Shown: positions 4,593-22,615 of the stretch, one piece after another
Layout of the letters: each line of letters starts with the position of its first letter
Position numbering within the stretch: the stretch's first letter is position 1
Source of the DNA: Bacillota bacterium
GTDB lineage: Bacteria; Bacillota; Sulfobacillia; JACIYH01
Direction: 5' to 3'
DNA length: 64,000 nt
Assembly (NCBI GenBank): GCA_030019365.1
Contig: JASEFA010000001.1
Span: 462,953 to 526,952 of the forward strand
Notes under the pieces: generated by a model
Told to the model about the DNA's origin: nothing
Seen by the model: the letters and a program-made list of their open reading frames with translations, nothing else
The model's database searches: none
Translations under genes and position numbers: made by a program

Positions 4593-4643
4593 CCCAACCC
4601 ACCTCCTGCACCTGCATCTCCGGTGACAACCCCTTGCGGTTGC

Positions 4644-4838: not shown

Positions 4839-4891
4839 GGTTGCCCACCTCCAGGTGATGGAATAGAAGCGGTAGACCATACCTCACGGCT

Positions 4892-5737: not shown

Positions 5738-5874
5738 CGTCGCACCTCCCGTTTTGGCCTTGCCGGACGAAGCCCACCGGCTGCCGGACGCCCCCATGTA
5801 CCGCAAGGCCCCGTGCCACTGGAAGCCGCCCTCACCCGCAGAAGTCCTCGCTGGACCTGAGGGCCCCGCCGCTC

Positions 5875-6582: not shown

Positions 6583-8005
6583 GCCGGATTCTCCCTCCCG
6601 TCGCGCGCGGCACCGGGGCCACCGCGGGGCCCCCGGGGCGATCCACAGGGGCACCGGGGCCGTCGCCCGCTGACCTGTCGATTGCAGAGGTCCCTCCCTG
6701 TCGCCAGGCGGGCACCGCCAGCCCCTCCCTTGCCATTCTTTCAGCCTGACCGGGCTCAAAGGCCGGCTCGGCCACCCGCTCGAAGCGTTCCGTGCCGCCG
6801 GAATCGGCTGCGTACCGGAAGACGGGGTGAAGGGGCAACCCGTCCGTACTAACCAGGCTCACTTCCACCACTCGCCTGCGTCCGTCGTGAAAGCGGGCCT
6901 GCTGCACGATGACATCCAGCGCGCTGCGGATTTGCTGCCGTATCGCGTTGAGCGGCAGGTTGGCCTCGGCCATCAGCACCATGTTTTCCAGGCGTGTCAG
7001 GGCCTCCGCGCTCGAGTTGGCGTGCACCGTACAGGCCGACCCCGGGTGACCGGTGTTCATGGCCTGCAGCATGTCCAGCGCCTCCCCACCCCGGCACTCG
7101 CCCACCACGATACGGTCGGGACGCATGCGCAGCGCGTTCCGCACCAGTTGTCGCATGGTGACCTCGCCCCGCCCCTCGGCGTTGGGCGGGCGGCACTCCA
7201 GTCGCACGATGTGGGGAAGATCCGCGCGCAACTCCGCCGAGTCCTCGATGGTGATGACACGCTCTCTCGCCGCCAGTGAACTGACCAGAGCACCCAGGGT
7301 GGTGGTCTTGCCCGAACCGGCCCCGCCGCTGATAAGGACGTTGAGCCGTCCGCGGAAGCACAGGGAGAGGAAGTCCGCTACCTCAACACTCATGGTCCTT
7401 AGATCGACCAGGTCCTCCAGGGAAAGGGGACGGCCCGGGAACTTGCGCACGGTGAGCACCGGGCCCACCAGGCTCAAGGGTGGGATGACCACGTTGATGC
7501 GGGAACCATCGGGGAGCCTGGCGTCGGCGTAGGGCGAGGAAACATCCACCCGCCGGCCCAGGGGTGCCACCATGCGCGTGACCAGGTGCATGAGGTCTTC
7601 TTCGTCCCGGAACGTTATCCCGGTGGGCTCGATTCTCCCCCGCCTTTCCACGAACACCTGTCCGGGCCCGTTCACCATCACTTCGGTGATCTCGGGGTCG
7701 GCCATCAGAGGTTCCAGGGGCCCATATCCCACCATGGCCGATGTCAGCTCGTCGGCCAGGACCTCCCTGCTCAACCTGGCGTGGCCCACATTGTCGCGCA
7801 CCAGCGTCTGCAGGACGACCGACCTGAGCTTCTCCCGGCAGCTGCGGTCCCGCCGGGCTTCGTTGACCAGCCGGCCGTACTCGTCCAGAAGACGGGGCTG
7901 CAGCGCACGCAAGAGGTCATCCAGCCTGGGTGTGCTCTCGCCGTCGCCTCCGGGTACCCCGGCCGACGGCGGCAGGGCCGCCAGACGCTTCAACAGCCCG
8001 CCCAC
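6491..8005 (-). CDS. tadA: TadA/CpaF secretion ATPase, Tad locus 1
   Basis: Hexameric ATPase that powers pilus assembly. The 504-residue protein has the N-terminal CpaF region (ITEVMVNGPGQVFVERRGR), Walker A GGAGSGKTT, an Asp box near TIEDSAEL, Walker B-type RIVVGE and a conserved His box (TGHPGSACTVHANS). GTG start at 8005, with GAGGGGG upstream. After the conserved core ends, a Pro/Gly/Arg-rich tail of about 85 residues runs on, and its last 30 codons overlap tadB. That tail may be dispensable or result from loss of an earlier stop. Confidence 0.92.
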   Translation of the reverse strand: MGGLLKRLAALPPSAGVPGGDGESTPRLDDLLRALQPRLLDEYGRLVNEARRDRSCREKLRSVVLQTLVRDNVGHARLSREVLADELTSAMVGYGPLEPLMADPEITEVMVNGPGQVFVERRGRIEPTGITFRDEEDLMHLVTRMVAPLGRRVDVSSPYADARLPDGSRINVVIPPLSLVGPVLTVRKFPGRPLSLEDLVDLRTMSVEVADFLSLCFRGRLNVLISGGAGSGKTTTLGALVSSLAARERVITIEDSAELRADLPHIVRLECRPPNAEGRGEVTMRQLVRNALRMRPDRIVVGECRGGEALDMLQAMNTGHPGSACTVHANSSAEALTRLENMVLMAEANLPLNAIRQQIRSALDVIVQQARFHDGRRRVVEVSLVSTDGLPLHPVFRYAADSGGTERFERVAEPAFEPGQAERMAREGLAVPAWRQGGTSAIDRSAGDGPGAPVDRPGGPAVAPVPRATGGRIRHDGALGEYGGVPGSAGRGPAAQDDAGPARG

Positions 8006-8017
8006 GAGAACCCCCCC

Positions 8018-9529
8018 TCAGAGCCGCGCCGGGCGATGGGATGCTCGGCGGAGAAACCAACCCCGCCTTCGTTCGGGCGCGCGCGCCGGTGCATCCGGGG
8101 CGGGGATGATGCCCTGGGCCAGGTCGAACAGGGCGGTGGCCAGGGGACCGGTGTGGCGGAGGAGGTAAGGGGTGCCCTGCATCACGGAGCGGCACGCACC
8201 GGGGTCGTCTGGCAGCAAGGCCACGGGGGCCATCCCGAGAAAGGCGTGGATGTCCCGAGCGTCGGGGGCGCCTTCATGGTAGCGATTGACGACCAGGCCT
8301 ATTGCGCCCCGCTGTATTCCCAGCCTGGGCATCAGGTCCAGGAAGACCCGGGCCTGATACAGACAGGCCGGATCCTGTACCACTACCAGCAGGATGCGGG
8401 TGGCACTCTCCAGGGCCTGGCAGAGTGCCTCGTCGCAGGGGCTGGGCGCAGTGTCGATCACCACCACCGGAAAACTTCCCCTCGCGCTGGCCAGAACCGA
8501 ACGCAGGTGATCCTGCCCGATGAACTCAGCCATCTCCGGGCGCGAGGGACCCTTGAGCACGTATAGCGCCGACGGAGGGTGCCTGACCAGGTGCTCGCGC
8601 AGCACCTCCGGGCTGACCTCCCGCCCGGAATTGAGGAGATCCAGCATCCCGGGTCCTCCCTGCAGGTTGAGGTGAATGCTGACGTCCGCCGAAGGCAGAT
8701 CCCAGTCCAGCAAGAGCACTTCCTGTCCCCGCGAGGACAGCGCGGCGGCGACGTTCACGGCGACGAAGGTCTTTCCCACTCCCCCCTTAGGGCTGCAGAC
8801 GGTCACCACCTGCGGCGTGGGAAAACCCTGCCACCCCCAGCCGGATGCTGCCACACGAGCGGCGCCAGCCGCGGAACCGGTCCGGGCCGGCTCCGGCGGG
8901 GATGGGGGCGGCCGCGATACGTCCACCGGGCCGCTGGTCGCAGCGACCCCCCGGGGAGACAGGGGTGGACGCGGCGCGTCGGCGGCGGCACCGGTGGCAG
9001 CCCTGGTCGGACCGGGCAGACTGGAGGGCAGACCCTGCACGGCGGGCTGCGGCGCAACCATTGCCGCAGAGGGCGGCGGCGCGGGCCGAGCGAGCGGCTG
9101 CGGGCCGGCCGGGGTGGATGGCGACGACTCCGGCGCCGCGGACGTTGCGGCCGGGTGGGAGCCACCACCATCGCCGCCGCCAAGCATCTGCCGGACGGTC
9201 TCGACCAGCCGGCGGTAGTCTGGCGGTGAGGGAAACACGTGCCAGCCAGCGGGCAGTTGCCCGGGGTCGGGCGCCTCTGACGCCCGCACCATCACCACGG
9301 GCAGGTCCGGGAACAACCAGGTCAGGTTGCCGGCGATGGCCCCCAGGTCGTAGGTCCCTTCCAGGTCGGGGGCGAGTACCAGCACGCGCGGCCGGTACCG
9401 GTCCAGGGCGCCGAACAGCAGCTCTGCCTGAGTAACCTCCGCCGCGGGGGGAATTCCGCTGCGCTTGAGAGCCACAGAGAGCAGCGGGTCCCGCCCGGCC
9501 ACCATGACTCCGGCCCCATTCGCGCTCAT
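8018..9529 (-). CDS. cpaE: CpaE/TadZ-like pilus localisation ATPase, Tad locus 1
   Basis: MinD/ParA-type protein that in other Tad systems positions the pilus machinery at the membrane. Residues 1-115 form an atypical receiver-like domain without a clean phosphoacceptor site (VLVLAPDLEG). Residues about 120-235 are a Pro/Ala/Ser-rich linker. From about 240 the MinD domain follows with an intact deviant Walker A (SPKGGVGKT), LLLDWDLPSADVS and VVIDTAPSP. The ATG overlaps the cpaB stop (ATGA), and tadA begins 13 bases after its stop. Confidence 0.88.
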   Translation of the reverse strand: MSANGAGVMVAGRDPLLSVALKRSGIPPAAEVTQAELLFGALDRYRPRVLVLAPDLEGTYDLGAIAGNLTWLFPDLPVVMVRASEAPDPGQLPAGWHVFPSPPDYRRLVETVRQMLGGGDGGGSHPAATSAAPESSPSTPAGPQPLARPAPPPSAAMVAPQPAVQGLPSSLPGPTRAATGAAADAPRPPLSPRGVAATSGPVDVSRPPPSPPEPARTGSAAGAARVAASGWGWQGFPTPQVVTVCSPKGGVGKTFVAVNVAAALSSRGQEVLLLDWDLPSADVSIHLNLQGGPGMLDLLNSGREVSPEVLREHLVRHPPSALYVLKGPSRPEMAEFIGQDHLRSVLASARGSFPVVVIDTAPSPCDEALCQALESATRILLVVVQDPACLYQARVFLDLMPRLGIQRGAIGLVVNRYHEGAPDARDIHAFLGMAPVALLPDDPGACRSVMQGTPYLLRHTGPLATALFDLAQGIIPAPDAPARAPERRRGWFLRRASHRPARL

Positions 9530-10245
9530 GGGACGTCCTCCCGAGACGAACCCTCACCGGTGGTCTGGGCACCTGTACCGAAAAACAGGTTATCCCAGGT
9601 CACCCCGGGCGTGGCAACGACCTGGGGCTCGAACGGGCACAGCGCCAGATACAGGGAGCCATGCTCCAGGGCAAAGGCCAACCGCTCCGCCTCCTCCACG
9701 GTGACTGCCAGCAGCACGCCCAGGGGAAGGTCTTTGCCCCGCGTCCAGGCCTGCCCGCGCTCGTCGCGCACCCCCAGCACTCTGACTCCTGCAACGAGAA
9801 CCCGTGCCACCTCGGGCTGGTCCGGAACGTCGCTCACGAAGACCACGTCCACCAGGCTCCCCGGCTGCAACGCACCTCCGCCCCACCGTTCCATGGGGAT
9901 CGGTAGCAGCATCGCCCGCAGCTGAGGGGGCAACTCGCAACCCGGCCCCGCTTCCTCGCGGGACCGGGTCCGGCTCATCAGGACCTGTTCGCCCGCCACC
10001 AGGTCCGCGGCGGTCACCCGGCCGAGCGCATCCCGCAGAGACCTCAGCGCCTGAGCGTGTATGGCATCCCGCGGCAGCATCACCACCCGGAGGTCACCCG
10101 CCCCCAGCACCTTCCCCATCGGCACGGGGCCGGCCGCCACCACCACCGGATACCTCCGCCCCAGGCCATCCAGGTAAAAGTAAACCGTCAGGGCCGCCGC
10201 CAGCGCCAGCACCACACTGCCTGCCATCCGCCATCTGCCTGCCAC
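9526..10245 (-). CDS. cpaB: CpaB/RcpC-like SAF-domain protein, Tad locus 1
   Basis: First gene of locus 1. CpaB/RcpC proteins carry an SAF domain and act at the envelope end of the Tad machine. A GTG at 10245 has GGGGAGG 7 bases upstream and gives a 239-residue protein: one N-terminal span (AGSVVLALAAALTVYFYL), the SAF region with VVVAAGPVPMGKVLGAGDL and the RcpC part with QPGSLVDVVFVSD and LLAVTVEEAERLAFALEHG. It stops soon after this part, so it lacks the long C-terminal extension of the CpaB in locus 2. The stop overlaps cpaE (ATGA). Confidence 0.85.
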   Translation of the reverse strand: MAGRWRMAGSVVLALAAALTVYFYLDGLGRRYPVVVAAGPVPMGKVLGAGDLRVVMLPRDAIHAQALRSLRDALGRVTAADLVAGEQVLMSRTRSREEAGPGCELPPQLRAMLLPIPMERWGGGALQPGSLVDVVFVSDVPDQPEVARVLVAGVRVLGVRDERGQAWTRGKDLPLGVLLAVTVEEAERLAFALEHGSLYLALCPFEPQVVATPGVTWDNLFFGTGAQTTGEGSSREDVP

Positions 10246-10423
10246 AGCCCCACCTCCCCGCCAACCCCGACCACTCGCAAGAGAAGGCGCGGGGAGGCGA
10301 ACAGACGCCGGCGGCTCCCGAGTCGACGCCTGCCCCTCCACGTACGGCCTGTGTGCATGCTTGCCCCCCTTCCGCTCGCGCGGCCGTCACCCCCGGGGCA
10401 GTCCGCCTCCCCATTTCGACCTT

Positions 10424-10474: not shown

Positions 10475-10511
10475 AGGGGAGCCGGCGGCCCCCTCCCTGG
10501 AGGTGAGGACA

Positions 10512-12173
10512 GTGGGAACCGGTATGTCGAACCCGCGCAGCGAGGTGGCCGCCTGCGTCCGCCTGCTGCTGGCAGCGGTGCTGGTGGTGGGAGTGGCAGC
10601 CACCTTTCCGGCACCCGCAGGGGCTACCCACGGGGCTACGCCGGGGGACCCGTGGTACGAGGACGTGTCATCCCGCTTTTGGGCTTACCGGGACATCCGC
10701 ATCATGTGGGAGGAAGAGTGCGCGGACGGGTGGGTGTTCACCCGCTGGCGATGGACGCCGTGGGGCGATTGGGAGGAGACGCTTTCCCGCTTCTACCCCA
10801 ACGATCGCATCAGCCGGGCGCAGTACGCCCTGCTCATGGCCAAGACCTTTCGCCTGCAACCCAAAGATGACTCCCGCCCGACCTTTGCCGACGTTCCCCG
10901 GGGTTTCTGCCTTTACGGCGACGAGCCCGCATACGGGTACATCGAAGCCCTGGCCGCCCGGGGCTGGGTCATGGGCGTAGGGGACGACGGGTTCCTGCCC
11001 CACGAGTTCATCGAACGCCAGCACGCCGTCGCGTTGCTGATACGGGCACTGGGCCTGGGCCCCTTCGCCCGGGCGATGGCGGCCGAGGCGAGCCGATACC
11101 TGGACCGTTTCCCGGACGGCTGTCAGGTGGATCCCTCGATGGCGCCCGAGATGGCCCTGGCCATCCGGCTGAGGATCATCATCGGTTACGACGACGGCCG
11201 CCTGCATCCCCGTGACCACATCTGGCGGTGCCAGGCCGCGGCGCTCATGGTGCGATCAGCTCTCATAGACGCCACCGCCGACCCGCCCCGCCTCAGCCCC
11301 GACGGGGACGGCGTGGAGGACACCGCCACCTTCAGGTTCCGCACCCTGAAGAATCGCTCCACCCGGAAATGGAGCCTCTCCATCGGCAACCTGGAGGGCG
11401 AATGGTACCGCTCCTTCTACCCGGAGGGTTGCCCGGGCGAGCCACCTCTCTGCCTGGCCTGGGACGGCCGCGGCGATGGGGGGCGGACCCTTCCCGACGG
11501 CACCTACTTCTACCAGGCCTGGATCGTCGACTCCCGCGGCGAGACGTGGCGGTCCGCCCTCAAACCCCTCACTCTGGAAAGGAGACGACTGTGGGGACAG
11601 ATCCATCCCGCCCACGTGGCTCCGGCCGAACGCCTCGTGATCGACGCGTCCACCACCGGGGGAGCCCAGCGGGTGACTGCTCACACGGGCGGCGTCCTGC
11701 TCGAACTGGTCCCCGCCTCGCCTCCTGAGATGGTAGGAAGCAACCGCTGGCACGGGACCTTCACCGCACCCGGGGACGGAGAAGAAGGATCCCGGCGGGT
11801 CAGGCTGGTGGCCCTGTTTCCGGGCACCACCCGCTCCCTCGATCTCAGCTACTACCTGCGCGACCCCCTCAGCCTCACCGGAACCCTGGACCCCAACCCC
11901 GCCCGCGCAGGCGGCCGCATACGGGTGCTGGCCTTCACCAGCCCCAACGTGTCCTCGGTGCGAGCGGACCTTCCCTGGGGCGAGCGGATCACCCTGCTCG
12001 CCCGCGAAACAGGCACCTGGGTGGGGAGCTTCCGCACCCTGCCCGACACCGCCGACGGCGCCTACCCGGTGCTCCTCGAAGCCAGGACGGGCGGAAGAAG
12101 TCGCCAGCATCCCCTCCAGCTCATCATCCAGGGCTCGTCTCTCGAGGACCTGGCCATCGTCCTCAGTGACTGA
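10512..12173 (+). CDS. Secreted S-layer homology (SLH) protein with FlgD-like Ig region
   Basis: Predicted cell-surface protein of 553 residues. GGAGG lies 8 bases before the GTG at 10512; an ATG four codons later is possible. A signal peptide spans about residues 12-38 (LLLAAVLVVGVAATFPAPAG). SLH-type repeats follow: ISRAQYALLMAKTF with FADVP, then VMGVGDDGFLPHEFIERQHA, then IIGYDDGRLHPRDHIWRCQA. At about residue 265 LSPDGDGVEDTATF opens a FlgD/CHU-type Ig-like module with LPDGTYFYQAWIVDS. SLH domains usually bind pyruvylated wall polymers. Divergent from Tad locus 1 with a shared promoter region, and overlapping the DUF192 gene tail to tail by 11 bases. Confidence 0.8.
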   Translation: MGTGMSNPRSEVAACVRLLLAAVLVVGVAATFPAPAGATHGATPGDPWYEDVSSRFWAYRDIRIMWEEECADGWVFTRWRWTPWGDWEETLSRFYPNDRISRAQYALLMAKTFRLQPKDDSRPTFADVPRGFCLYGDEPAYGYIEALAARGWVMGVGDDGFLPHEFIERQHAVALLIRALGLGPFARAMAAEASRYLDRFPDGCQVDPSMAPEMALAIRLRIIIGYDDGRLHPRDHIWRCQAAALMVRSALIDATADPPRLSPDGDGVEDTATFRFRTLKNRSTRKWSLSIGNLEGEWYRSFYPEGCPGEPPLCLAWDGRGDGGRTLPDGTYFYQAWIVDSRGETWRSALKPLTLERRRLWGQIHPAHVAPAERLVIDASTTGGAQRVTAHTGGVLLELVPASPPEMVGSNRWHGTFTAPGDGEEGSRRVRLVALFPGTTRSLDLSYYLRDPLSLTGTLDPNPARAGGRIRVLAFTSPNVSSVRADLPWGERITLLARETGTWVGSFRTLPDTADGAYPVLLEARTGGRSRQHPLQLIIQGSSLEDLAIVLSD

Positions 12174-12555
12174 GCGGATCTCGCGCGTGGGGGTCCGCCT
12201 GGACGGCGCTGACCGCCAGCCTGTCTCCCGCCGTAGTTGCCGTGGCCATAACCGTGCCGGCAGGGAGCTCCAGCACGCACGTGGCAGCCCTGACCCATGG
12301 GCCCCATCGGTTGGGCCTCATGAGGGTACACGCCAGGATCACCCGACCGTTGCCGGCTATGTACAGCGCGTCGATAGGAAACCTCATGCCGAAGGTGTGG
12401 ATGCCTCGACATGGCGTGAGGAGCAGGCCCTCTCCGGGGGCAAGACCCCGCCTGCCCAGCAGGCCCCGCAGCCGACTCAGGCAGATATCGGCCACCCACG
12501 CCCGGTCGGCCAGGATCGTTCCTCGACTGGCATTAGTAACCCGTACTGCCTTCAC
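12163..12555 (-). CDS. DUF192 family protein
   Basis: A 130-residue protein with the DUF192 fold signature: SRLRGLLGRRGLAPGEGLLL, then the conserved IHTFGMRFPIDALYI and a C-terminal VLELPAGT. The family is widespread and its biochemical role is unknown; it is often found beside T2SSF genes, as here, and overlaps tadC by 4 bases. No signal peptide is evident in this copy. Being the last gene of Tad locus 2, it is probably co-transcribed with it. Confidence 0.82.
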   Translation of the reverse strand: MKAVRVTNASRGTILADRAWVADICLSRLRGLLGRRGLAPGEGLLLTPCRGIHTFGMRFPIDALYIAGNGRVILACTLMRPNRWGPWVRAATCVLELPAGTVMATATTAGDRLAVSAVQADPHARDPLSH

Positions 12556-13463
12556 GGCCGGAGGAACGCCCCCAGGATATGCAGGACGGCAGGCCCCAGG
12601 ATGATCACCAGCAGGGAAGGGAAGATGCAGAAGACGAGCGGGAACACCAGCTTCACGGGAGCCTGCATGGCCAGTTCCTCGGCCCTCTGCTTCTGACGCC
12701 TCCGCATCTCGTCGGACTGAACCCGGAGCGCCCGGGCCAGCCCGGTGCCGAGCTGCTCCGCCTGGATGATCGCCCCGGCAAAGGCCCTGAGTTCCGCCAG
12801 GCCCACCCGGTTGGCCAGGTGCTCCAGTGCCTCTGCCCGGGTGGCTCCCACGTTCACTTCTCGAAGGTAGACCTGCAACTCATCGCTCAAAGGTCCGGGC
12901 AGCTTCTCGGCTACCTTCTGCAGTGCTCCGTCGAACCCCACGCCGGCCTCCACGGAGACACACAGAAGGTCGATGGCATCAGGCAGGCGCTTCCTGATGG
13001 CGGCGCGTCGCCGCGAGATTACCCGCCCCAAGATGAAGTCGGGCAGGCAGTACCCCACCACCGGCCAGGCCAGGAACGACACCAGGGAAAGGCCACCCGA
13101 CCCGGTCCCTGCCCAAACCAGCGACACGGCCATCCCCCCCAGGCTGCCCAGCAGCTTGGCGGCAAGCAGGCTGTCGGCGGGCAAAGGACGACCGGCATGC
13201 TCCAGCCTCTCCTGGAGTTGCCGCCTGATGCGCGTCGGGGTCCAGCGCACTGCCACCTGTCGGAGGTCCCGAAGCACTGGAGCCAGGGCCCGTTCCCGGA
13301 GAGGCGCCCGGTCAGGCCGGGGTGCTGGCGCCCCCCGGCCCATCCGCTGCAGTCGTCGGGCCAGAGCAGTCTCTTCTTCGGTGGGAGCGACGACGGCGTA
13401 CGTGAGCGCCCACCCCGCCAGAAAGCTCAACGTCAGCAAACCCAGGCGCAGGTAAGCTTCCAT
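12552..13463 (-). CDS. tadC: TadC-like platform protein (T2SSF), Tad locus 2
   Basis: 303-residue inner membrane platform protein. N-terminal span LTLSFLAGWALTYAVVA, a second hydrophobic pair near 110-150, then the T2SSF domain with LPDAIDLLCVSVEAGVGFDG and FAGAIIQAEQLGTGLARALR, and a final span FPLVFCIFPSLLVIILGPAV. Start set at ATG 13463 (MEAYLRL). A GTG nine codons upstream would overlap tadB. It is clearly different in sequence from TadC of locus 1, so the loci are not recent duplicates. Confidence 0.87.
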   Translation of the reverse strand: MEAYLRLGLLTLSFLAGWALTYAVVAPTEEETALARRLQRMGRGAPAPRPDRAPLRERALAPVLRDLRQVAVRWTPTRIRRQLQERLEHAGRPLPADSLLAAKLLGSLGGMAVSLVWAGTGSGGLSLVSFLAWPVVGYCLPDFILGRVISRRRAAIRKRLPDAIDLLCVSVEAGVGFDGALQKVAEKLPGPLSDELQVYLREVNVGATRAEALEHLANRVGLAELRAFAGAIIQAEQLGTGLARALRVQSDEMRRRQKQRAEELAMQAPVKLVFPLVFCIFPSLLVIILGPAVLHILGAFLRP

Positions 13464-13476
13464 TCCCCGAGGCCCC

Positions 13477-14544
13477 CTACATATCCACACTGACCAGCTT
13501 GCGGATGACGAAGAAACCGATCACGGCCAGCAGGGCAGCGGCACCCAGCATCAGTTGCCCGAGGCCACTCGTCACCAGGATCTCCAGATACTCGGGGCTG
13601 AGCCACCATATCAGCGCGCCGAGGACCAGGGGCAGGCTCCCCACGATGATCCCGGACAGTCGTCCCTGGGCGGTGAGCGTGCGGACCTCCCCCCGCAGGC
13701 GCAAACGGTCGCGGATCGTCTCGCCGACGCGGTCGATCACCTGGGCAAGATTGCCGCCGGCCTCCCGCTGAACGCTGACGGCGGCCACCACCAGATCCAG
13801 GTCAAGGCTACCGACCCTTGCCGACAGGCGGCGGAGAGCATCCTCCAGGGGGACGTTCACACGTGTCTCCTGGACCAGCCGTGACAGCTCCGGGCCGAGG
13901 GGTGCCGGCACCTCCCGGCTCACCGTGTCCGCCGCCTGCAGAAAGGACTGGCCTGCTCGCAGTGCTCCCGCTATCATGGTGAGCGCGTCCGGCAACTGGC
14001 GCTCAAAGGACGCGATACGCCGGGCCACCCGCCGCCTCAACCAGAGTGAGGGAATCGCCCCGCCTGCAGCGGCGCACGAGAGGACCAGGGCAGGCCTTTC
14101 GAACAGGAGGCCTGCAACGGTGCCCACCGCAGCGGTCACCAGGCTCAACAGGCAAAACTCCGCCGGCGTAAGTTCGATCGCCCCCCGGAGCAGGGCCTTT
14201 TCGAGCCTGCCGGGGGAGACGAGGCTTCCGAGCCCGTGCCCCACCCGCCCGTCCGGGCCACGGGTCCGCCAGACCACGCGGCGTATCCACCGTGCCGTCC
14301 GGCGTACGCCACCCGCGACACCGCCCTGGCCGTCCGGCCTGCTGCCGGCACGGTGGCGTCCGGTGCCGGGCCGCTCCGATGCCCCACTGGGACGCTCGGC
14401 TGAGCTGGTGCAATGCTCCAGCGCATCGCCCGGACGGCGGCTCGGCCGTTCCCACCTGGCCGCGGGGACCGGGCGGGCGGGCCAGATGGCCCACAGAGTG
14501 GTCAGCACGGCGGTCGCGAAAACCGACGCGAGCACCACACCCAT
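13477..14544 (-). CDS. tadB: TadB-like platform protein (T2SSF), Tad locus 2
   Basis: 355-residue platform protein, about 120 residues longer than TadB of locus 1. The extra length is a charged Arg/Pro/Gly-rich cytoplasmic segment (about 22-100) after the first span. The T2SSF domain has LPDALTMIAGALRAGQSFLQ and DLVVAAVSVQREAGGNLAQV, and two C-terminal spans close the protein (IIVGSLPLVLGALIWWL; LMLGAAALLAVIGFFVI). It begins 2 bases after tadA ends. Confidence 0.88.
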   Translation of the reverse strand: MGVVLASVFATAVLTTLWAIWPARPVPAARWERPSRRPGDALEHCTSSAERPSGASERPGTGRHRAGSRPDGQGGVAGGVRRTARWIRRVVWRTRGPDGRVGHGLGSLVSPGRLEKALLRGAIELTPAEFCLLSLVTAAVGTVAGLLFERPALVLSCAAAGGAIPSLWLRRRVARRIASFERQLPDALTMIAGALRAGQSFLQAADTVSREVPAPLGPELSRLVQETRVNVPLEDALRRLSARVGSLDLDLVVAAVSVQREAGGNLAQVIDRVGETIRDRLRLRGEVRTLTAQGRLSGIIVGSLPLVLGALIWWLSPEYLEILVTSGLGQLMLGAAALLAVIGFFVIRKLVSVDM

Positions 14545-14545
14545 C

Positions 14546-15967
14546 TTACCTCGCCTCCCTGCCGTCGGGGTTGAACAGGCCGGGCGGAAGGTCCACCCCG
14601 GTGCCGGTCAGTCGCTCCCAGAAGCGAGGCACGATGCCAGTGGGCCGGTGTACCGCAATCAGCCTGCCGTCGGGTCCGATTCCCGTTATTTCCAGCCGGA
14701 ACATGTCCTGCAATACGATCACGTCCCCCTCCATCCCCTGCACCTCCGTGACGTGGGTGATGCGGCGGGTGCCGTCCTTGAGACGGGCCTGATGGATGAC
14801 CAGGTCCAGGGCCGCCGCTATCTGCTCCCGGACCGCACGCAGGGGGAGGTCCATCCCCGCCATGAGGGCCATGGTCTCCAGCCTCGACAGCAGGTCCCTC
14901 GGCGAGTTGGCGTGGACGGTGGTCAGGGAACCGTCGTGACCGGTGTTCATGGCCTGGAGCATGTCCAGGGCTTCGCCCGTGCGCACCTCGCCCACCACAA
15001 TCCGGTCGGGCCGCATCCGCAGGGCATTGCGCACCAGCTGTCTGATGGTGATCTCCCCCGCGCCTTCCAGGTTGGGAGGTCGTGCTTCCAGGGAAACCAC
15101 GTGTTCCTGCTGCAACCTCAATTCTGCCGCATCCTCGATGGTGACGATCCGCTCGTGCCTGGGTATGAACGAGGAAAGCACGTTCAGGGTCGTGGTCTTG
15201 CCGCTACCGGTCCCGCCGGAAACCACCGTGTTGAGGCGCGCGAGCACCGCAGCCTTCAGGAAATCGCAGATGCGCTGATCCACCGTTCCCAGGCGTACCA
15301 GATCCGAAGCGGTAAGGGGCTGGCGGCTGAACTTACGTATGGTCAGCGTGGGACCGGTCACCGCCACGGGAGGGATGATGGCGTTCACCCGCGAACCGTC
15401 GGGGAGACGGGCGTCCACCATAGGGGAGGCCTCGTCGATGCGCCGGCCCAGGGGGGCCACGATGCGCTCTATGAGATCGAGCACCTCCTTGGGCCCGGAG
15501 AAGCGCACCGGGGTCGGCTCGATACGCCCGTTCCGTTCGATGTAAACCTGATACGGACCGTTGACCATGACTTCCGTGACCGTGGGGTCATCCAGGAACG
15601 CCTGGATGGGCCCGTATCCCACTATGCTGGCGGTAATGGCGTCGGCCAACCCGTCCTGCTCCAAAGGGGAAACCCCTTCCTCGCCCAGGACTGCCATGAT
15701 TACTTCCCGGACCTCGGACCCCGGCGCGACCTGCTCCTTGCGGGTGGCCAGCCGTTCCAGCAACCTGGCCTGCGCCTTGGCCCGCAGCGCGGCAACTGCC
15801 GCCTGCTGGGGCTGTTCCGGTGCCCGGGGCCCCGGCGGCGGCGCAGGTTGCCGCGGAGGTTCCGGCTGGCTGGACGCACCGGGCAAGAACGGGGCACCCC
15901 GGGCGGAGCGGTCCTCCCTGCCGGGCGATTCCCCTGCTTTCTCCATGACGCGCCGATACAGGCTCAT
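14546..15967 (-). CDS. tadA: TadA/CpaF secretion ATPase, Tad locus 2
   Basis: 473-residue pilus ATPase. The ATG at 15967 overlaps the stop of the upstream cpaE-like gene (ATGA). A Pro/Gln-rich N-terminal stretch (about 25-55) precedes the CpaF core: VTEVMVNGPYQVYIERNGR, Walker A GGTGSGKTT, TIEDAAEL, the Walker B region RIVVGEVRTGEA and the His box TGHDGSLTTVHANS. Unlike the locus 1 copy, it ends soon after the core with a compact 35-residue tail and has no long overlap with tadB. Confidence 0.94.
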   Translation of the reverse strand: MSLYRRVMEKAGESPGREDRSARGAPFLPGASSQPEPPRQPAPPPGPRAPEQPQQAAVAALRAKAQARLLERLATRKEQVAPGSEVREVIMAVLGEEGVSPLEQDGLADAITASIVGYGPIQAFLDDPTVTEVMVNGPYQVYIERNGRIEPTPVRFSGPKEVLDLIERIVAPLGRRIDEASPMVDARLPDGSRVNAIIPPVAVTGPTLTIRKFSRQPLTASDLVRLGTVDQRICDFLKAAVLARLNTVVSGGTGSGKTTTLNVLSSFIPRHERIVTIEDAAELRLQQEHVVSLEARPPNLEGAGEITIRQLVRNALRMRPDRIVVGEVRTGEALDMLQAMNTGHDGSLTTVHANSPRDLLSRLETMALMAGMDLPLRAVREQIAAALDLVIHQARLKDGTRRITHVTEVQGMEGDVIVLQDMFRLEITGIGPDGRLIAVHRPTGIVPRFWERLTGTGVDLPPGLFNPDGREAR

Positions 15968-17313
15968 GCTCCACCCCCCTGCCACCTCATGATTCCCTCG
16001 GGGGCCCAGCCCGTCCCCACCAGACGGTCGTAAACGGAGGCGCTGCGAGCGGGTGTCGCCCGCGCAGGCCGCGGCGGCCTCCGTTGCCGGTCGCGCACAG
16101 GCTGGGCGGGTACCTCCCCGAGGCCGTCCACCACCTCCCCGGTGGCCTCCCCACCCGGCCCCGCCAGGCTCTCTCCCATCCTTACCAGGGCCCGGGCCAC
16201 CTCGCTCCGGCCGCGCTTGAGGACAAAAGGTTGGCCGCGATCGGACGCCCCCAGCACCGTGCCTTCGTCTGCAGGGATGACGTAGGAAACGGGATGATCC
16301 AGGCCGCGGGATATCTGCTCGAGCTTTATCGAGCGCTGGGGATCGTACCGATTCACCACCAGGCGCACTTTCTCGGACGGGTAACCCAGCTTGCCCAGCA
16401 GCACGTCGAGGATCCGCCCCGCGCGGTAAAGCACAGGCACCTCGGCGGTCGTCACCAGCATGACGACCTGGGCAGAATCCAGGGCCGCCAGTGTGGCCTC
16501 CCGAAAAGTGCTCTGGGTATCCACTACCAGGTAGTCGCACAGACGGCGGAGGCGGGAGATGACCTGGGTTACGTACGGTCGACCCGCTTCCCTGCGTGCC
16601 TCCCCGTCCACCTCTGCAGCCAGGTGCGGTTCGGGCGGAGCCGCCAGCAGCCCGGGAAGGCCCGCCGTGCCGGGGGTAAGGACCTTGAGTATCATGTCGT
16701 CGGTGAGCTCCCCCTCGCGGCGGCACAGGTCGATGATGCTCGTGCGCGGCTCCACACCCATAAGGGGCCCGGCCACCCCGAACTCCAGGTCCAGGTCCAT
16801 GAGGACGGCCTTACGCCCGCGCAAGGCGAGCCAGGACGCCAGGTTGACTGCCAGGGTGGTCTTACCCACACCGGCCGGGCCAAAAAACACCACGCTCAGC
16901 GCCCCCGAAGCGGGATGGGGAGTGGGAGGCAAGTCCCCCGTTCCATCCACCGCCGCCCTGATGGCAGCCAACAGTTCGTCGGCACCGAAGGGCTTTACCA
17001 GGTAGTCCCTCACACCCGCCCGCATGGCCCGGCGGAACTCCTCCGCTCCTGACTCAACCGAAACCACGATTACGGACGTGGGAAGCTGCCCCCGCACCGC
17101 CTCCGCCACCTGGGCTCCGTCCAGGCTGGGAAGGCGCATGTCCACCACCATGACATCGGGCCGGAGGGCGATGGCCATGGCGACCGCCTTCGTCCCGTCC
17201 TCCGCCTCGCCTACCACCTCCACATCCCCCGAGCCCCCCAGCATGGCTCTGAGGGTGCTGCGCCAGGCGGCGGAGTCCTCCGCGATCAGGACCCGGATCC
17301 TGTCTTCCTCCAT
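15964..17313 (-). CDS. cpaE: Receiver domain-CpaE fusion, Tad locus 2
   Basis: 449-residue protein from ATG 17313 (AAGGAG 8 bases upstream). Residues 1-120 are a canonical response-regulator receiver: acidic pocket near AED (11-13), phosphoacceptor Asp58 in VVDMRLP and Lys107 in YLVKPF. From about 140 a MinD-like ATPase follows, with Walker A GPAGVGKTT (about 145-153) in which the usual signature lysine of the KGGVGKT loop is replaced by Pro, and later LVVDTQSTF. A basic Pro/Arg-rich tail closes it. The intact phosphorylation site suggests control by a histidine kinase; a DegS-like kinase is encoded 4 kb upstream. Confidence 0.88.
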   Translation of the reverse strand: MEEDRIRVLIAEDSAAWRSTLRAMLGGSGDVEVVGEAEDGTKAVAMAIALRPDVMVVDMRLPSLDGAQVAEAVRGQLPTSVIVVSVESGAEEFRRAMRAGVRDYLVKPFGADELLAAIRAAVDGTGDLPPTPHPASGALSVVFFGPAGVGKTTLAVNLASWLALRGRKAVLMDLDLEFGVAGPLMGVEPRTSIIDLCRREGELTDDMILKVLTPGTAGLPGLLAAPPEPHLAAEVDGEARREAGRPYVTQVISRLRRLCDYLVVDTQSTFREATLAALDSAQVVMLVTTAEVPVLYRAGRILDVLLGKLGYPSEKVRLVVNRYDPQRSIKLEQISRGLDHPVSYVIPADEGTVLGASDRGQPFVLKRGRSEVARALVRMGESLAGPGGEATGEVVDGLGEVPAQPVRDRQRRPPRPARATPARSASVYDRLVGTGWAPEGIMRWQGGGA

Positions 17314-17326
17314 GCCCGTCACTCCT

Positions 17327-18694
17327 TCACGGGAGAACCCACAGGAGGACCAGCATCTCGCTCGTGCCTCGCTCCACCTCGTCAGAACGGAGGCTGGCTG
17401 GCAAAGCCAGGCGGGAGAGGCCATCAGGTGCTCCCAGACACTGGGCACCCAGGAGCCCATGAATGACCAGGCAGTCCCCCACACCCAGGGTCACTGTGCC
17501 GGCCAGGCGCTCGGAGCCGGGCTGCACTTCCTCCGCCCCCAGGGTCGCTTCTGCCCGGCCGTCCGTACCTAACGCGCCCAGAAGGGGCTCCCCGTTAGAC
17601 CCGGTCTGCGGCACGTCCAGATACCGGAGTTCTGCGCTGGCATCCAGCCTCCAACCCCGTTTGTCGGCGGGTACTCCCACCACCTCCAGGCGGAAGCCGT
17701 AGCTGATCCAGGCCAGGCCCCCCCGCCCGGAAACCGGCACGCTCGACTCCAGTTCCCAGCGAACCGGTACTCCGGATCCACCGGACAGCTCTCGCCGGGC
17801 GATCAGCCGACCCTTGCCCTGAGTGACGAGAGATTCCACTTCCCTCCGGAAAGACGCATCCCTGGTGATGATGCCGGCGGGCCACCCCCGCCCTAAGCCG
17901 AGCGCAGCCAGCTGGCCCGACTGCACCTCGAACATGGCCGCTACCGACCGCAGGGCCGGACCCGGAACGGGCTTGAGGCGGGCGCTTGTTCCGGCCGAAA
18001 AGGATGCGGTGGTCAGCTCGATCTCGCCTCTCGTCCACTCCCCCGTGAGCGGGCGCAGGGCCAGGCGGATGCGCCCCGTCTCCTCGGCCAGGGCCAGAGC
18101 GATGGCCTGCTCCGGAGTCACTGCCACCGTCACCGATCGCACTTCCCCGCCCGCCGCCTTGGCGGGGGGCACCACCTCCGTGGTCCGGCCCACCGCCACC
18201 ACCTGGACGTCTTCCAGGAGCAAACGGGACTTGTCCGCCCCTGCCACTTCCCGCGGGAAGGTAGCGATCACGTCCACCCTGTCACCAGGCCGAAGCAACC
18301 ACGCCACTGCCTTCACTTCGTCGGCAGCCACGGTGACCGCCCGGTACCCGCTGGGAAGGTGGCTGCCCAGTCCCAGGCTGGTGCCGGGATAGACCAGCTT
18401 GCTGCGCAGGACCAGCTCTCCGGGCACCAGGGGTACCAGGGTCACCTTGCCTTCCGCCTGGGTCAGGTCCGTCAGCGTCTCCGGGCCCGCCAGGGAAGGA
18501 GGCACACCCTTGAGCACCAGGTCCGCAGCCGTCAGCACGGTGCCGGACGACATGGCCCGGGCCGCAGCTACCACCCGTACCTCCTCGGGAGGACGGGGAG
18601 CCAGCTTCTGAAGATAAGCGTAGGTGGCTGAAACCGCCACCAATCCTACCAGTACCGGAAGCAGTATGAGCTTCAGTACTTGCCTGCGCGTCAT
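17327..18694 (-). CDS. cpaB: CpaB SAF-domain protein fused to a secretin-like core, Tad locus 2
   Basis: 455-residue envelope protein. Residues 7-27 form a membrane anchor; about 38-105 is the SAF domain (ARAMSSGTVLTAADLV, LVPGELVLRSKLV); about 110-235 is the RcpC part (AWLLRPGDRVDVIATF, VTPEQAIALALAEE). From about 250 the protein resembles the secretin core domain: FEVQSGQLAALGLG, SLVTQGKGRLIARREL, SYGFRLEVVGVP, AELRYLDV, VTLGVGDCLVIHGLL and the C-terminal SEMLVLLWVLP, in the usual order. No N0/N1 secretin modules precede it. This would combine CpaB and CpaC roles in one polypeptide. Confidence 0.8.
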   Translation of the reverse strand: MTRRQVLKLILLPVLVGLVAVSATYAYLQKLAPRPPEEVRVVAAARAMSSGTVLTAADLVLKGVPPSLAGPETLTDLTQAEGKVTLVPLVPGELVLRSKLVYPGTSLGLGSHLPSGYRAVTVAADEVKAVAWLLRPGDRVDVIATFPREVAGADKSRLLLEDVQVVAVGRTTEVVPPAKAAGGEVRSVTVAVTPEQAIALALAEETGRIRLALRPLTGEWTRGEIELTTASFSAGTSARLKPVPGPALRSVAAMFEVQSGQLAALGLGRGWPAGIITRDASFRREVESLVTQGKGRLIARRELSGGSGVPVRWELESSVPVSGRGGLAWISYGFRLEVVGVPADKRGWRLDASAELRYLDVPQTGSNGEPLLGALGTDGRAEATLGAEEVQPGSERLAGTVTLGVGDCLVIHGLLGAQCLGAPDGLSRLALPASLRSDEVERGTSEMLVLLWVLP

Positions 18695-18713
18695 GCCACC
18701 GCCCCCCGATCGT

Positions 18714-19652
18714 TCACCTCGTCAGCTTTACCCCCAGGGCGCGCCAAGAGGCCGCCCCCTCCCATGCCCCCAGCTCCCCCGCCGTTGCCCGGCGCAGGAA
18801 GCGCCCGTATACCCACGACTCCGACCCCTCGCCGGTGTAGTCCTCAAGAAAGAAGTAGGCGAAACCAACCACGGTGACTTCGTCCCGGCCGTGCACTCCC
18901 GAGAAGTCGACCACCGGCAGAAGCAGCAGGCGCGGAGAGTTGGGAGCATAGTCCGTAAACGTCTCTCCGGGGCGGGCCCGAGCCAGCCGCTCCTCGATGG
19001 CCCAGCCTGTGGGACCGGACATGTTGCCAGGCTCGGTTTCCAGCCGGTCCCCCACCCGCACCATCTGCTGCCAGCCTTCGGCCAGCCTCTGCTCGTAATT
19101 GCGCGCCCCCCGGCCTCCCAGGGCCAGGGCATGGAAGTTTCCGTGCTCTCCGCTCCCTCCCGCCAGCTTGAGGGCGTACCGTTCCCCCACCACGAAATCC
19201 TCCTCACCCACGCCCAAAGGCACCACCCCCCGGGCGCCGCCCAGGGGGGCCACGGACGCCTCCGCCCGCGCTCCCACCGGCATATGCTCCACCGACCATA
19301 TGCGTGCAAAGGTGGTGCCCGGATCGGCGGCAGCGGTCACCCGTATCACGCTGGGCGGCTCACCCGGAGCCGGGGCCTCTCCCCGTGCTTCGCTGGCGGT
19401 CATTACGTCCACCTCTACCTGCCCGGGATCAAGGCCGTGACGGGAGGCATATGCGTGCGCCACCTGCTCGGCTGCCACCGGATCCCCCGGGAGTTCCGCT
19501 ACCCCGCCCAGAGCAGCGGCATCGACCGCGTCCTGAAGCTCCATGCGAGCCAGGTAGCCCCGCCCCGCATCCAGAGCCAGCGCCGCGACCCCCATCAGGC
19601 AGGCACCCATTAACGCCGCCATGACGAGGACGTAGCCTTTCTCGTCGCGCAC
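18714..19652 (-). CDS. TadG-like pilus assembly protein, Tad locus 2
   Basis: 312-residue protein beginning at GTG 19652 (VRDEKGYVLVM), with GAGGTGAG just upstream. The N-terminal DEKGYVLVMAALMGACLMG and AALALDAGRGYLARMELQDA match the Flp-assembly TadG N-terminal domain, with AVDAAALGGV after the anchor. The rest (about 80-312) is an extracellular domain with a beta-rich pattern and no von Willebrand metal site that I can see. It is much longer than the locus 1 homolog. Located between tadE and the CpaB-secretin gene. Confidence 0.78.
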   Translation of the reverse strand: MRDEKGYVLVMAALMGACLMGVAALALDAGRGYLARMELQDAVDAAALGGVAELPGDPVAAEQVAHAYASRHGLDPGQVEVDVMTASEARGEAPAPGEPPSVIRVTAAADPGTTFARIWSVEHMPVGARAEASVAPLGGARGVVPLGVGEEDFVVGERYALKLAGGSGEHGNFHALALGGRGARNYEQRLAEGWQQMVRVGDRLETEPGNMSGPTGWAIEERLARARPGETFTDYAPNSPRLLLLPVVDFSGVHGRDEVTVVGFAYFFLEDYTGEGSESWVYGRFLRRATAGELGAWEGAASWRALGVKLTR

Positions 19653-19732
19653 GGTCTCACCTCGCTCCCTCAGCACCTGCAGGCCCTCACTCCCGCCAAC
19701 CCCCGCCACCAGGTACCCGCCGAGCAGCGCCG

Positions 19733-20143
19733 TCACTCGATGCGCATGTAGACCCGCCTTTCGACCAGGACGGTGGACCCCAGGATGGGTTGGAAGAGAC
19801 CGATCAGAGGCCGGTAGGCGAAGCGCACGATGACCTCCAGTGTGTCCCCCGTGGACCGGGACGAAGCCGGGGGCGATATCACCACTTCCAGCCGGGCCGG
19901 GTCGAGGCCCGGGCACGAAGCCACCACGCGGTCTGCTATAGCCTGATCCTCCGCACCGGTAGCGCCCAGCCGGGCGCCCTCGCGGGCACCGTGTTCCACC
20001 GTCAGGTACACATTGAGCAGCATGCCGAACTCCAGGATGCCCAGGAGCAGCACCAGCAGGACGGGCAGGGCCAGGGCCAACTCCACCAGCGCCTGGCCCC
20101 GCTCGCCCGCTCCTGCACCGTGTCCTCTCACTCGCGCTCTCAC
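19733..20143 (-). CDS. tadE: TadE-like minor pilin, Tad locus 2
   Basis: 136-residue minor pseudopilin from GTG 20143, which has GGGGAG 5 bases upstream. Signature GERGQALVELALALPVLLVL followed by LGILEFGMLLNVYLTVEHGA and REGARLGATG. The C-terminal half is beta-rich (DTLEVIVRFAYRPL, STVLVERRVYMRIE). It is cleanly spaced between flp and tadG. Confidence 0.88.
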   Translation of the reverse strand: MRARVRGHGAGAGERGQALVELALALPVLLVLLLGILEFGMLLNVYLTVEHGAREGARLGATGAEDQAIADRVVASCPGLDPARLEVVISPPASSRSTGDTLEVIVRFAYRPLIGLFQPILGSTVLVERRVYMRIE

Positions 20144-20252
20144 CGGCTCTCCCCCCGGCCGCTTACCCCGGCGACCCTCCCGCACCGGCTCCACCCTGAA
20201 GAAAACGGGTCCCACCTGTTCGGCGGGACCCGACGGGGCGGGGCTTCCTTTC

Positions 20253-20450
20253 TTAGGGGCCAGGCAACTGGAGCTTGTCCTTGATCCCGGTGAAGAGGTC
20301 GCTCAGCCTGACACCCAGTGCACCTAGTGCCACGATCACACCAACTGCGATGAGGGCGATGATGAGACCATACTCGACCAGCGACTGACCGTTTTCGTCC
20401 CGGCACCGCGCCCGCAACCAGGTGATGAGGTAGTTGAGCGGGTTCAGCAT
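20253..20450 (-). CDS. flp: Flp-type IVb pilin, Tad locus 2
   Basis: 65-residue major pilin candidate with AAGGAGG 8 bases before ATG 20450, an excellent site that suits a highly expressed subunit. The leader MLNPLNYLITWLRARCRDE is basic; the mature part starts GQSLVEYGLIIALIAVGVIV and continues to LGVRLSDLFTGI. It is the first gene of locus 2. No clear consensus promoter was found in the 150 bases upstream; TGCTATTTT near plus 20515 could be an extended -10. Confidence 0.92.
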   Translation of the reverse strand: MLNPLNYLITWLRARCRDENGQSLVEYGLIIALIAVGVIVALGALGVRLSDLFTGIKDKLQLPGP

Positions 20451-20598
20451 TTGTGGACCCTCCTTTCCGTGCCGATTTCCCCTGCGGTTCCCTGCCGAGT
20501 CTCCGGGAACAAAATAGCAGGCCCGCAGCCTGCCCAGCATGAGTCCATCAGCCTCATTTTTCGTCCGGGACCTTTGGCCCCGGTGAGGGCCGGGGGTC

Positions 20599-21252
20599 CT
20601 ACCGGGAAGCGTCCCGCGCCCTGATCCAGCCCTTCTGGTAACACAGGGCCAGCATCTCCGAGCGGCCTTTGACCCCCAGCTTGCTGTAGATGTTACTCAG
20701 GTGGTTTTTCACCGTTTTCGGTGCTACGTAAAGCCTCCGGGCCACGTCGGCACTGCTGAATCCTTGCGCGATCAAGCCCACGATTTCCCACTCGCGGGCC
20801 GACAGGCCCCCGGGCCCCTGCCGTTCCTGCGGCCGGCAGGGGATACGGGCCAGCTTCTGCGCCAAAGGGGAATGGATGAACAGCTGGCCGCGGGCGGCCG
20901 CCCGGATGGCGTCCACCAGGACAGGAGGATCCGCTTCTTTCAGCACGTAGCCGTTGACGCCAGCGCGCAAGGCTTCCTGCAGATACTGAGTCTCATCGTG
21001 GATGGTAAGCAGGACGATGCCCAGGTCGGGGCGGGTCTGACGGATAGAGCGGGCCACCTCGATACCGTTCAGGCCGGGCATGCTGATGTCCAGCACCACC
21101 ACCCCGGAGGGCATCTCGGCCGCCTTCTCCACCGCATCCCTCCCGTCAGAGGCCTCGGCCACCACCCGGAAGGACGGTTCCAGCTCCAGTACCGCCCGGA
21201 GCCCCTGGCGAACCAGAGGATGATCATCGGCTACCAGCACCGCCACTTCCAT
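20599..21252 (-). CDS. NarL/DegU-type response regulator
   Basis: 217-residue transcription factor. Receiver residues: acidic pair in VADDHP (9-10), phosphoacceptor Asp55 in VVLDISMPG, and Lys in GYVLKEADPP. A LuxR-type helix-turn-helix follows at about 150-205 (LSAREWEIVGLIAQGFSSAD, VAPKTVKNHLSNIYSKLGV). ATG 21252 has GGGAGG 7 bases upstream. Its likely partner kinase lies immediately upstream on the same strand. The gene ends about 150 bases before flp of Tad locus 2, so it may control that locus; this is inference from position. Confidence 0.9.
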   Translation of the reverse strand: MEVAVLVADDHPLVRQGLRAVLELEPSFRVVAEASDGRDAVEKAAEMPSGVVVLDISMPGLNGIEVARSIRQTRPDLGIVLLTIHDETQYLQEALRAGVNGYVLKEADPPVLVDAIRAAARGQLFIHSPLAQKLARIPCRPQERQGPGGLSAREWEIVGLIAQGFSSADVARRLYVAPKTVKNHLSNIYSKLGVKGRSEMLALCYQKGWIRARDASR

Positions 21253-21367
21253 GCGCCGCCCTCCCTTCCCTCGAACGCTCAGCGCCCTGCTGCGCCTGTC
21301 GCCATTCACGCAGGCCGCAGGGGGTGGCAGCGCCTGCAGGTGCCCCGCATGGCCTCATGCGACCTCT

Positions 21368-22615
21368 CTACTCCGGAGGAAGGGGGATCTCCGCCCCGAC
21401 CTGGGTGCCCCGGCCCGGCCGGGACTTGATCCACCACTTCCCTCCCAGGAACTGCACCCTTTCCTTCATCCCGGCCAGCCCGAAGGTGTCGGGCGGCAGG
21501 GTGGCAGGGTCGAATCCTTTACCCCGGTCATAGACCACCAGGCGCACGCGGTCCCGGTTGGTGTGGAGGGCTACCGCTGCTCTGTCTGCACCTGCGTGCT
21601 TCCAGACGTTGTTGAGGGCTTCCTGAAGCACGCGAAAGAGGGCGATTTCCACCGCGGGAGGAAAGCGCCTGTCGGAGCCGCGTACTTCCAGCCTCACCTC
21701 CACCCCCGTTCGCTGCTGCCAGCCTCCCAGCCAGGAACGCATGGCGGGTACCAGGCCCAACTCATCCAGGCTCATGGGGCGCAGGTCGAAGATCATGCGC
21801 CGCAGGTCGAACAGGCAGGCACCAAGCAGCTCCTTCAGGTCCCCCAACTCGCGCCCTGCCCGTCCCGGGTCCTCCTCCAGGAACCGCCCGCAGACCTCCG
21901 ACCGCATCATGGCCGCCGCCATGGTCTGGGCGGGCCCATCGTGGATGTCGCGGGCCAGCCGCCGCCTCTCGTCTTCCTGAGCCTTGAGCAGGCTGAGACC
22001 CAGCCGGAATCTCTCCTGCCACGAGCCCACCTGGGCGGTGAGGTCGCGCAGGTTGCCGGACAGGTAGCCCAGCACCACCCCCACCTGGGCCACCAGTTCC
22101 TCCGCCCGCCTGACCGCCTGCTCCAGTCCCCGGAAGCGGCGCTCCAGCTCTTCCCGGCGGCGCCGCAGCTCCCTTTCCCTGTCCTGAGCGGTCAGGAGTT
22201 GAGCACGGGTCTCTACCGCCCTCTGATAGGCGGCCTGCACCGCATCCTCGCCGTAAGCGGCCAGGTTCGCGCTCACCTGCATGAGCGCGACGCGGGCCGC
22301 CCGCTCCTGCTGCTCGAACTGGTCCACCAGGGCGATCTGGACGGTCACCTGCTTGCGAACCTCTTCCAGCTCTCCCTTAACTTTATCGTACTCGGACCGG
22401 GCCGACTCAGCGATGGCGTATATCTGCGCCCTGCTGCGATCGATGGCGGAGATGGTCTCCTGGATGATCCTCTCCAGGGCCTGCAACTGCCGGGTACCCA
22501 ACTCTTCCGGGCGGAAGTCGGGGGAGGGAGACGAGGGCACAGTGCCGAAATCGGGAACAGGAGGATTCTTCTGCTGGGCACCTTGCTCGGACGATCCCTT
22601 CACCGGCTGCGCCAC
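21368..22615 (-). CDS. DegS-like cytoplasmic sensor histidine kinase
   Basis: About 415 residues with no membrane span. An N-terminal DegS-type region (about 38-215) is mostly coiled coil (ERIIQETISAIDRSRAQIYA, then Arg/Glu-rich helices). The HisKA_3 box has the phosphorylated His in RRLARDIHDGPAQTMAAAMM, and the HATPase has LFRVLQEALNNVWKHA, VYDRGKGFD and FGLAGMKERV. The first GTG is at 22615 with GGAG directly against it; a GTG at 22603 has better spacing from GGAGGT. Its 5' end overlaps the divergent mltG frame. Confidence 0.9.
   Translation of the reverse strand: MAQPVKGSSEQGAQQKNPPVPDFGTVPSSPSPDFRPEELGTRQLQALERIIQETISAIDRSRAQIYAIAESARSEYDKVKGELEEVRKQVTVQIALVDQFEQQERAARVALMQVSANLAAYGEDAVQAAYQRAVETRAQLLTAQDRERELRRRREELERRFRGLEQAVRRAEELVAQVGVVLGYLSGNLRDLTAQVGSWQERFRLGLSLLKAQEDERRRLARDIHDGPAQTMAAAMMRSEVCGRFLEEDPGRAGRELGDLKELLGACLFDLRRMIFDLRPMSLDELGLVPAMRSWLGGWQQRTGVEVRLEVRGSDRRFPPAVEIALFRVLQEALNNVWKHAGADRAAVALHTNRDRVRLVVYDRGKGFDPATLPPDTFGLAGMKERVQFLGGKWWIKSRPGRGTQVGAEIPLPPE

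Follow-up and report, generated by a model that had tools for sequence, protein, structure and literature searches.

Tad secretins of the RcpA/CpaC type are outer-membrane proteins that carry N-terminal periplasmic domains (VirB9-like, T2SS-T3SS_pil_N or BON, and N3) and assemble into channels of 12-15 subunits. RcpA contacts the membrane via its lip, its barrel rim and the AHL: the membrane is entered by the inner lip together with the outer barrel, and the amphipathic domain sits at its inner leaflet (PMC10499894). The RcpC of P. aeruginosa forms a dodecamer that is anchored in the membrane and has a pore of ~5 nm; it guides the pilus and binds RcpA through a C-terminal β-hairpin (PMC12307814), and CpaB of C. 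crescentus is an alignment subcomplex too (PMC13170226). Denise et al. 2019 (PMC6668835) regard the secretin as absent from monoderms, having been lost as the Tad system adapted to them. Stand-alone PilQ homologues occur in some Gram-positive pil operons (Imam et al. 2011, PMC3244431), and separate Tad secretins are found in other Bacillota, including Lucifera butyrica (L084), Negativicutes (L095) and the genomes G343, G177 and G257, where cpaC is the next gene after cpaB within one operon.

Here we describe a Tad CpaB from a Bacillota lineage that continues into a secretin core. The protein shares with RcpC (PDB 9gzr; PMC12307814) the transmembrane anchor, the SAF-type D1 domain and the RcpC D2 domain, as well as the neighbours TadE, CpaE, CpaF, TadB and TadC. 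However, RcpC ends in a linker and the β-hairpin that docks on RcpA, whereas in the fusion the chain runs on into the secretin core. With RcpA/CpaC (PDB 8odn; PMC10499894) it has in common a full-length secretin core, the gate-1 segment and the C-terminal strand, but it lacks a start or export signal of its own, an N-domain and the LGDIP loop; its lip region is shorter, and the core sits within CpaB in a host without BamA. The separate Tad secretins of other Bacillota differ in that cpaB and cpaC remain two genes, the T2SS-T3SS_pil_N and BON domains are kept, and BamA is present in the nine genomes tested. The Gram-positive PilQ homologues likewise place a secretin homologue in so-called Gram-positive lineages, but they belong to type IVa-like pil operons as separate genes, without CpaB and with no trimmed fusion reported (PMC3244431). 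No earlier report of a CpaB-secretin fusion was found in our literature search, which covered few subscription journals.

Results

Organisation of the fusion gene and its locus

The window, as we call the whole 64,000-nucleotide stretch of DNA analysed here, contains two tandem tad loci at 3559-10341 and 12552-20540 (both minus strand), with the secretin fusion in the second. The features of the fusion gene and of its neighbours are as follows.

17327..18694, minus strand: cpaB-secretin fusion gene (P0001), an open reading frame of 455 aa plus stop
18602..18688, minus strand: N-terminal membrane anchor helix, residues 3-31 (helix H3-31 of the full-length AlphaFold2 model; hydrophobic sequence)
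18395..18580, minus strand: SAF domain, residues 39-100 (PF08666, E 1.6e-9; FlgA fold, Z 11.9)
18053..18370, minus strand: RcpC/CpaB ring domain, residues 109-214 (PF16976, E 3.2e-26; RcpC 9gzr, Z 10.1, 92 residues, 2.6 Å)
17330..17965, minus strand: secretin-derived core, residues 244-455 (profile match to RcpA 8odn, AlphaFold2, and PF00263 in 8/11 family members)
17828..17929, minus strand: shortened region at the RcpA inner-lip position, residues 256-289 (segment lengths, with the lip assigned from the RcpA alignment)
17366..17458, minus strand: region in place of the amphipathic membrane loop, residues 413-443 (segment lengths and motif counts)
20253..20540, minus strand: Flp pilin (PF04964, E 5.2e-11)
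19733..20215, minus strand: TadE minor pilin (PF07811, E 1e-15)
18714..19916, minus strand: open reading frame of a TadG-like protein, directly upstream of the fusion gene (PF13400)
15964..17316, minus strand: CpaE/TadZ with an N-terminal response-regulator receiver domain (PF00072, E 1.4e-22; CbiA/AAA_31, MinD-like ATPase)
14546..16726, minus strand: open reading frame of the CpaF/TadA ATPase, the real start probably near 15970 (T2SSE, E 2.5e-66)
13477..14544, minus strand: TadB platform protein (T2SSF, E 1.2e-16)
12552..13490, minus strand: TadC platform protein (T2SSF, E 1.5e-19)

The fusion gene is part of a tad locus with Flp, TadE, CpaE, CpaF, TadB and TadC; the start of CpaE/TadZ, ~10 nt downstream of the fusion gene, was picked by eye. 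The order Flp, TadE, CpaB-secretin, CpaE, CpaF, TadB, TadC is conserved in the named relatives, within the limits of their contigs. The CpaB of the first locus (9526-10341, minus strand) has 271 aa and lacks the secretin part, in agreement with the initial annotation of this DNA. Both CpaB types lie on one contig in several relatives, ~7-21 kb apart, and the paired tad loci may represent an ancient, conserved organisation in which the work is divided between them. Between the two loci, 10476-12170 (plus strand) encodes a protein with an SLH (S-layer homology) domain that also matches CHU_C weakly. Directly upstream of the Flp pilin gene, at 20599-22615 (minus strand), are a NarL/LuxR-type response regulator and an apparent sensor histidine kinase, which are possible regulators of the tad locus. 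The genome encodes Spo0A, consistent with the spore-former lineage that had been supposed for it.

Sequence evidence for a secretin core

The N-terminal part of the 455-aa protein is a conventional CpaB: TIGR03177 (pilus_cpaB, NCBIfam) covers residues 10-238 with 153 bits against a cut-off of 71, and the SAF and RcpC domains both score above their curated Pfam cut-offs. Past residue ~240 neither Pfam nor NCBIfam returned anything, with no PF00263 (Secretin) match even at an E-value of 10, and a PF00263 profile search of the window's own genome was without any match. It is these last ~210 residues that form the divergent secretin core. The initial annotation had read this stretch of DNA as a CpaB carrying its own secretin-like core; its coordinates are right, on the minus strand, and the four motifs that it had pointed to sit at residues ~288-455, where they align with the secretin positions 'GkArVl..p.l', 'YGv.L.v.P', 'GetlvigGL' and 'tELvi.vtP'.

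Used as a query, the C-terminal part of the window protein finds the C-termini encoded in G001, G003, G021 and G028 (E 2e-69, 1.6e-11, 3.6e-10 and 1e-7, respectively), the G003 match being the C-terminus of the relative L003. PF00263 scores above its cut-off of 27.5 bits within the CpaB frame of G005 (55.4), G016 (51.5), G030 (33.7) and G003 (32.7), and more weakly in G013 and G020. When 11 family members were aligned (the window protein and 10 relatives with the same fusion), eight matched Secretin in Pfam and some matched the GspD, PilQ, MshL and YscC models of NCBIfam. The PF00263 search that had been suggested as a check therefore gives a divided answer, negative for the window protein and its genome but positive for most of the family. 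The window copy is among the most diverged in the fused family (stem branch of 3.1 changes per column in the secretin-domain tree), and PF00263 is blind to its sequence alone; a single-sequence test would thus have led us wrongly to dismiss the finding.

Profiles built from the family gave a clearer result. Searched against all PDB sequences, the C-terminal family profile has significant matches to secretins only, and the top match is RcpA, the P. aeruginosa Tad secretin (8odn, E 6.4e-14, profile positions 14-213 of 216). For the full-length family profile the two best PDB matches are RcpC (9gzr, positions 36-220, E 1.9e-23) and RcpA (positions 214-440, E 9e-13). As these two best relatives are known binding partners in P. 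aeruginosa (PMC12307814), we count their pairing in favour of the fusion model. An hhalign comparison of the fused C-termini with eight separate CpaC-type secretins of the phylum gave a probability of 99.5 and an E-value of 4e-22 over 197 columns.

The negative Pfam result on the single window sequence would also be expected if the C-terminus were a β-rich CpaB tail with a chance likeness to secretin motifs, or an artefact of assembly or contamination. Against this, the same tail is found in independent genomes and contigs, four of which exceed the PF00263 cut-off in the CpaB frame, and chance likeness is ruled out by the PDB profile match (E 6e-14) together with the predicted structure, which is that of a secretin; we give such an explanation practically no weight. 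Together these data confirm that the window protein is a Tad-pilus CpaB/RcpC with a divergent secretin core, showing both the fusion and homology to RcpA and to PilQ/GspD.

Predicted structure

AlphaFold2 modelling of the C-terminal part with nine natural sequences resulted in a mean pLDDT of 83.6 and a pTM of 0.79, and the strands of the secretin barrel are predicted to be kept. Foldseek TM-scores of the monomer model against secretins were low (mostly 0.25-0.38; ~0.3) despite significant E-values, perhaps owing to the bending of barrel subunits, and a second look with the DALI-like VIA-align was used in their place. The top 28 VIA-align entries are all secretins, with Z from 9.7 to 7.0 against 6.3 for the next unrelated entry, and include InvG, GspD, PilQ, pIV and RcpA (8.5); these matches rest on a predicted model and have an rmsd of ~4-6 Å. 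The full-length model contains, in sequence order, a FlgA/SAF fold (Z 11.9), an RcpC fold (9gzr, Z 10.1) and the secretin core, with domain placement that is uncertain (pTM 0.46). These models predict a secretin fold for the C-terminal domain, as the initial annotation had anticipated. That annotation had named the lack of a secretin-profile match and an unrelated fold as grounds for giving it up; the former is seen with the window protein alone, whereas the predicted fold is that of a secretin.

Elements lost and kept relative to separate secretins

Segment lengths were compared after aligning the secretin domains of 13 fused and 43 separate proteins. At the position of the RcpA inner lip, the segment has a median of 32 residues in the fused proteins versus 51 in the separate ones, its identity as the lip coming from the alignment rather than from a superposed structure. 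The amphipathic-loop segment measures 25-30 residues in the 13 fused domains versus exactly 33 in all 42 separate domains measured, and its LGDIP-type motif (LGDIPxLG) is present in 35 of 43 separate domains and in none of the 13 fused. The gate-1 segment has retained its length (47 residues fused, 48 separate). Apart from Secretin, the Pfam domains of the fused proteins are of the CpaB type only (RcpC, SAF, ChapFlgA). The secretin N-domains T2SS-T3SS_pil_N and BON were not found by Pfam in the 11 aligned fused members, in contrast to the separate secretins of the phylum, which carry both; the fusion had been described from the outset as lacking N-terminal secretin modules, and this is upheld. 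Given the membrane contacts of RcpA (PMC10499894), the shorter lip region and the missing AHL indicate that the lost parts are largely those that contact the outer membrane, and the kept parts those that line the pilus path.

Distribution, envelope markers and history of the fusion

A protein search found CpaB in all 41 related genomes, with a matching frame of 435-503 aa in about a quarter of them and of ~240-300 aa elsewhere. The C-terminal profile is present in 12 of the 154 genomes of the class, and the fusion also occurs in one genome outside it (G502). The resulting 13 genomes, the window's and 12 others that keep the fusion, span 12 family-level groups, and their frames are open. In the rest of the phylum this profile picks up separate secretins, which are often encoded by the gene directly after cpaB. 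The closest unfused matches (E 1e-29 to 4e-27) are such secretins right after cpaB in G343, G177 and G257 (L051-L053), from a single BamA-bearing family, and are useful as an outgroup to the fused domain. One fused genome, G013, also has a partial stand-alone secretin (L031, contig 18, 4838-5095; 65 bits, 348-aa frame), which is likely contamination: completeness of the bin is 88% and contamination 3%, and its record L074 carries the title Acetobacteraceae.

Outer-membrane genes had been proposed as something to look for in relatives that keep the fusion. In a profile search BamA (PF01103) was found in 0 of the 154 class genomes, 110 of which are of high quality. BamA is absent from all 13 fused genomes but present in 9/9 tested phylum genomes with a separate secretin, and LpxC is likewise found in 0/13 versus 8/9; the fused genomes count as one clade for the fusion trait, and this is one correlated contrast rather than 22 independent ones. 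A diderm host is rejected by these absences, which fit the earlier suggestion of a relic from a diderm ancestor.

A true membrane pore, with the class having a hidden outer membrane without LPS and the fusion crossing the envelope as a channel in one piece, would agree with the predicted retention of the secretin barrel strands. However, the search that failed to find BamA in any of the 154 class genomes was positive in all nine secretin-bearing phylum genomes, LpxC is absent from the fused genomes, the amphipathic loop is gone and the lip region is shorter. We consider such a channel very improbable. The minimal pore envisaged in the initial annotation is thus only partly supported: with the parts that contact the outer membrane in RcpA reduced or gone, the protein is more likely to form a soluble ring or conduit than a pore in a membrane.

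Of the CpaBs of the class, all that are fused and most that are not fall in one clade of the CpaB tree (SH-aLRT 97), where the two kinds are intermixed. Many class CpaBs are without the secretin domain, and one genome of the same genus (G002) has only a CpaB of the locus-1 type; this interspersion, together with G002 having the locus-1 type alone, indicates that the secretin domain is dispensable. Several independent fusions would be permitted by the CpaB tree taken alone, which requires 7 label changes, but are opposed by the secretin-domain tree, in which every fused domain lies on one side of a 100/100 branch. A single fusion followed by repeated domain losses is favoured though not proven, the secretin tree having long branches. 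Comparison of the window with its sister genome gave a dN/dS of 0.16 in the CpaB part and of 0.31 in the secretin part, rough values at a dS of ~1, which is near saturation; roughly, the secretin part appears constrained, less so than the CpaB part.

The main rival to a working ring is a non-functional relic: a core that was fused during outer-membrane loss, no longer functions as a ring and is disappearing from one lineage after another. The unfused CpaBs among the fused ones, the fast evolution of the window copy and the presence of only a locus-1 CpaB in G002 all speak for it. Yet the frames remain open in 13 genomes from 12 family-level groups, the dN/dS is 0.31 and the predicted fold is confident, and every member shows trimming of the same elements next to a gate-1 of unchanged length, a pattern that random decay would not give. 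On this evidence a mere relic seems unlikely.

Discussion

These data allow us to propose a mechanism for the origin and use of the fusion. We consider it probable that cpaB fused with an adjacent cpaC and that the secretin turned into a gated ring, soluble and seated on the CpaB alignment ring of a single-membrane envelope, the ring and its function being what we infer. Given that cpaC directly follows cpaB elsewhere, a single deletion from the end of cpaB through the N-domains of CpaC could have created the fusion. With the outer membrane lost, the secretin, which monoderms usually delete, would have been retained to extend the CpaB ring in soluble form. The N-terminal helix would anchor the single chain in the cytoplasmic membrane, the SAF and RcpC domains would make up the alignment ring, and the secretin core would form a second, gated β-ring directly atop it, lining the route of the Flp pilus through the peptidoglycan and any surface layer. 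In this arrangement the fusion would substitute for the joint of the RcpC β-hairpin with the RcpA N-domain, and would impose a 1:1 stoichiometry on the alignment and secretin rings. There is, in our estimate, a somewhat better than even chance that an outer-membrane pore protein has been remade as a gated ring that is soluble and stacks onto the alignment ring, giving a one-chain Tad conduit of matched symmetry in a single-membrane lineage. Its role would most likely be that of a soluble gated extension of the conduit through the peptidoglycan, one that perhaps reaches the foot of a surface layer; the gene for the SLH-domain protein adjoins the locus.

Given that we infer the ring of the fusion, the secretin-fold C-terminus might instead serve CpaB as a monomeric adhesion or peptidoglycan-binding module, and the remodelling of one side of the domain (lip, AHL) could suit such a role. 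However, CpaB/RcpC forms rings (PMC12307814), which would gather ~12 secretin cores in one place, and the gate-1 segment is kept, leaving a monomeric module improbable.

The soluble gated ring would have consequences for how the Tad system is understood. In contrast to the standard view (PMC6668835), the secretin core would have outlasted the outer membrane by becoming part of CpaB, its membrane-facing elements having been cut back, and the fusion would stand as a molecular trace of outer-membrane loss in the Bacillota. As a natural 'Rosetta stone' fusion it supports the contact between RcpC and RcpA, and it may offer structural studies of the Tad conduit a simpler protein, as a 1:1 fusion removes the proposed 12:13 mismatch. 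The role of a secretin without an outer membrane also becomes testable. If the model is true, a diderm machine would have been adapted to a monoderm cell by a route other than simple secretin loss.
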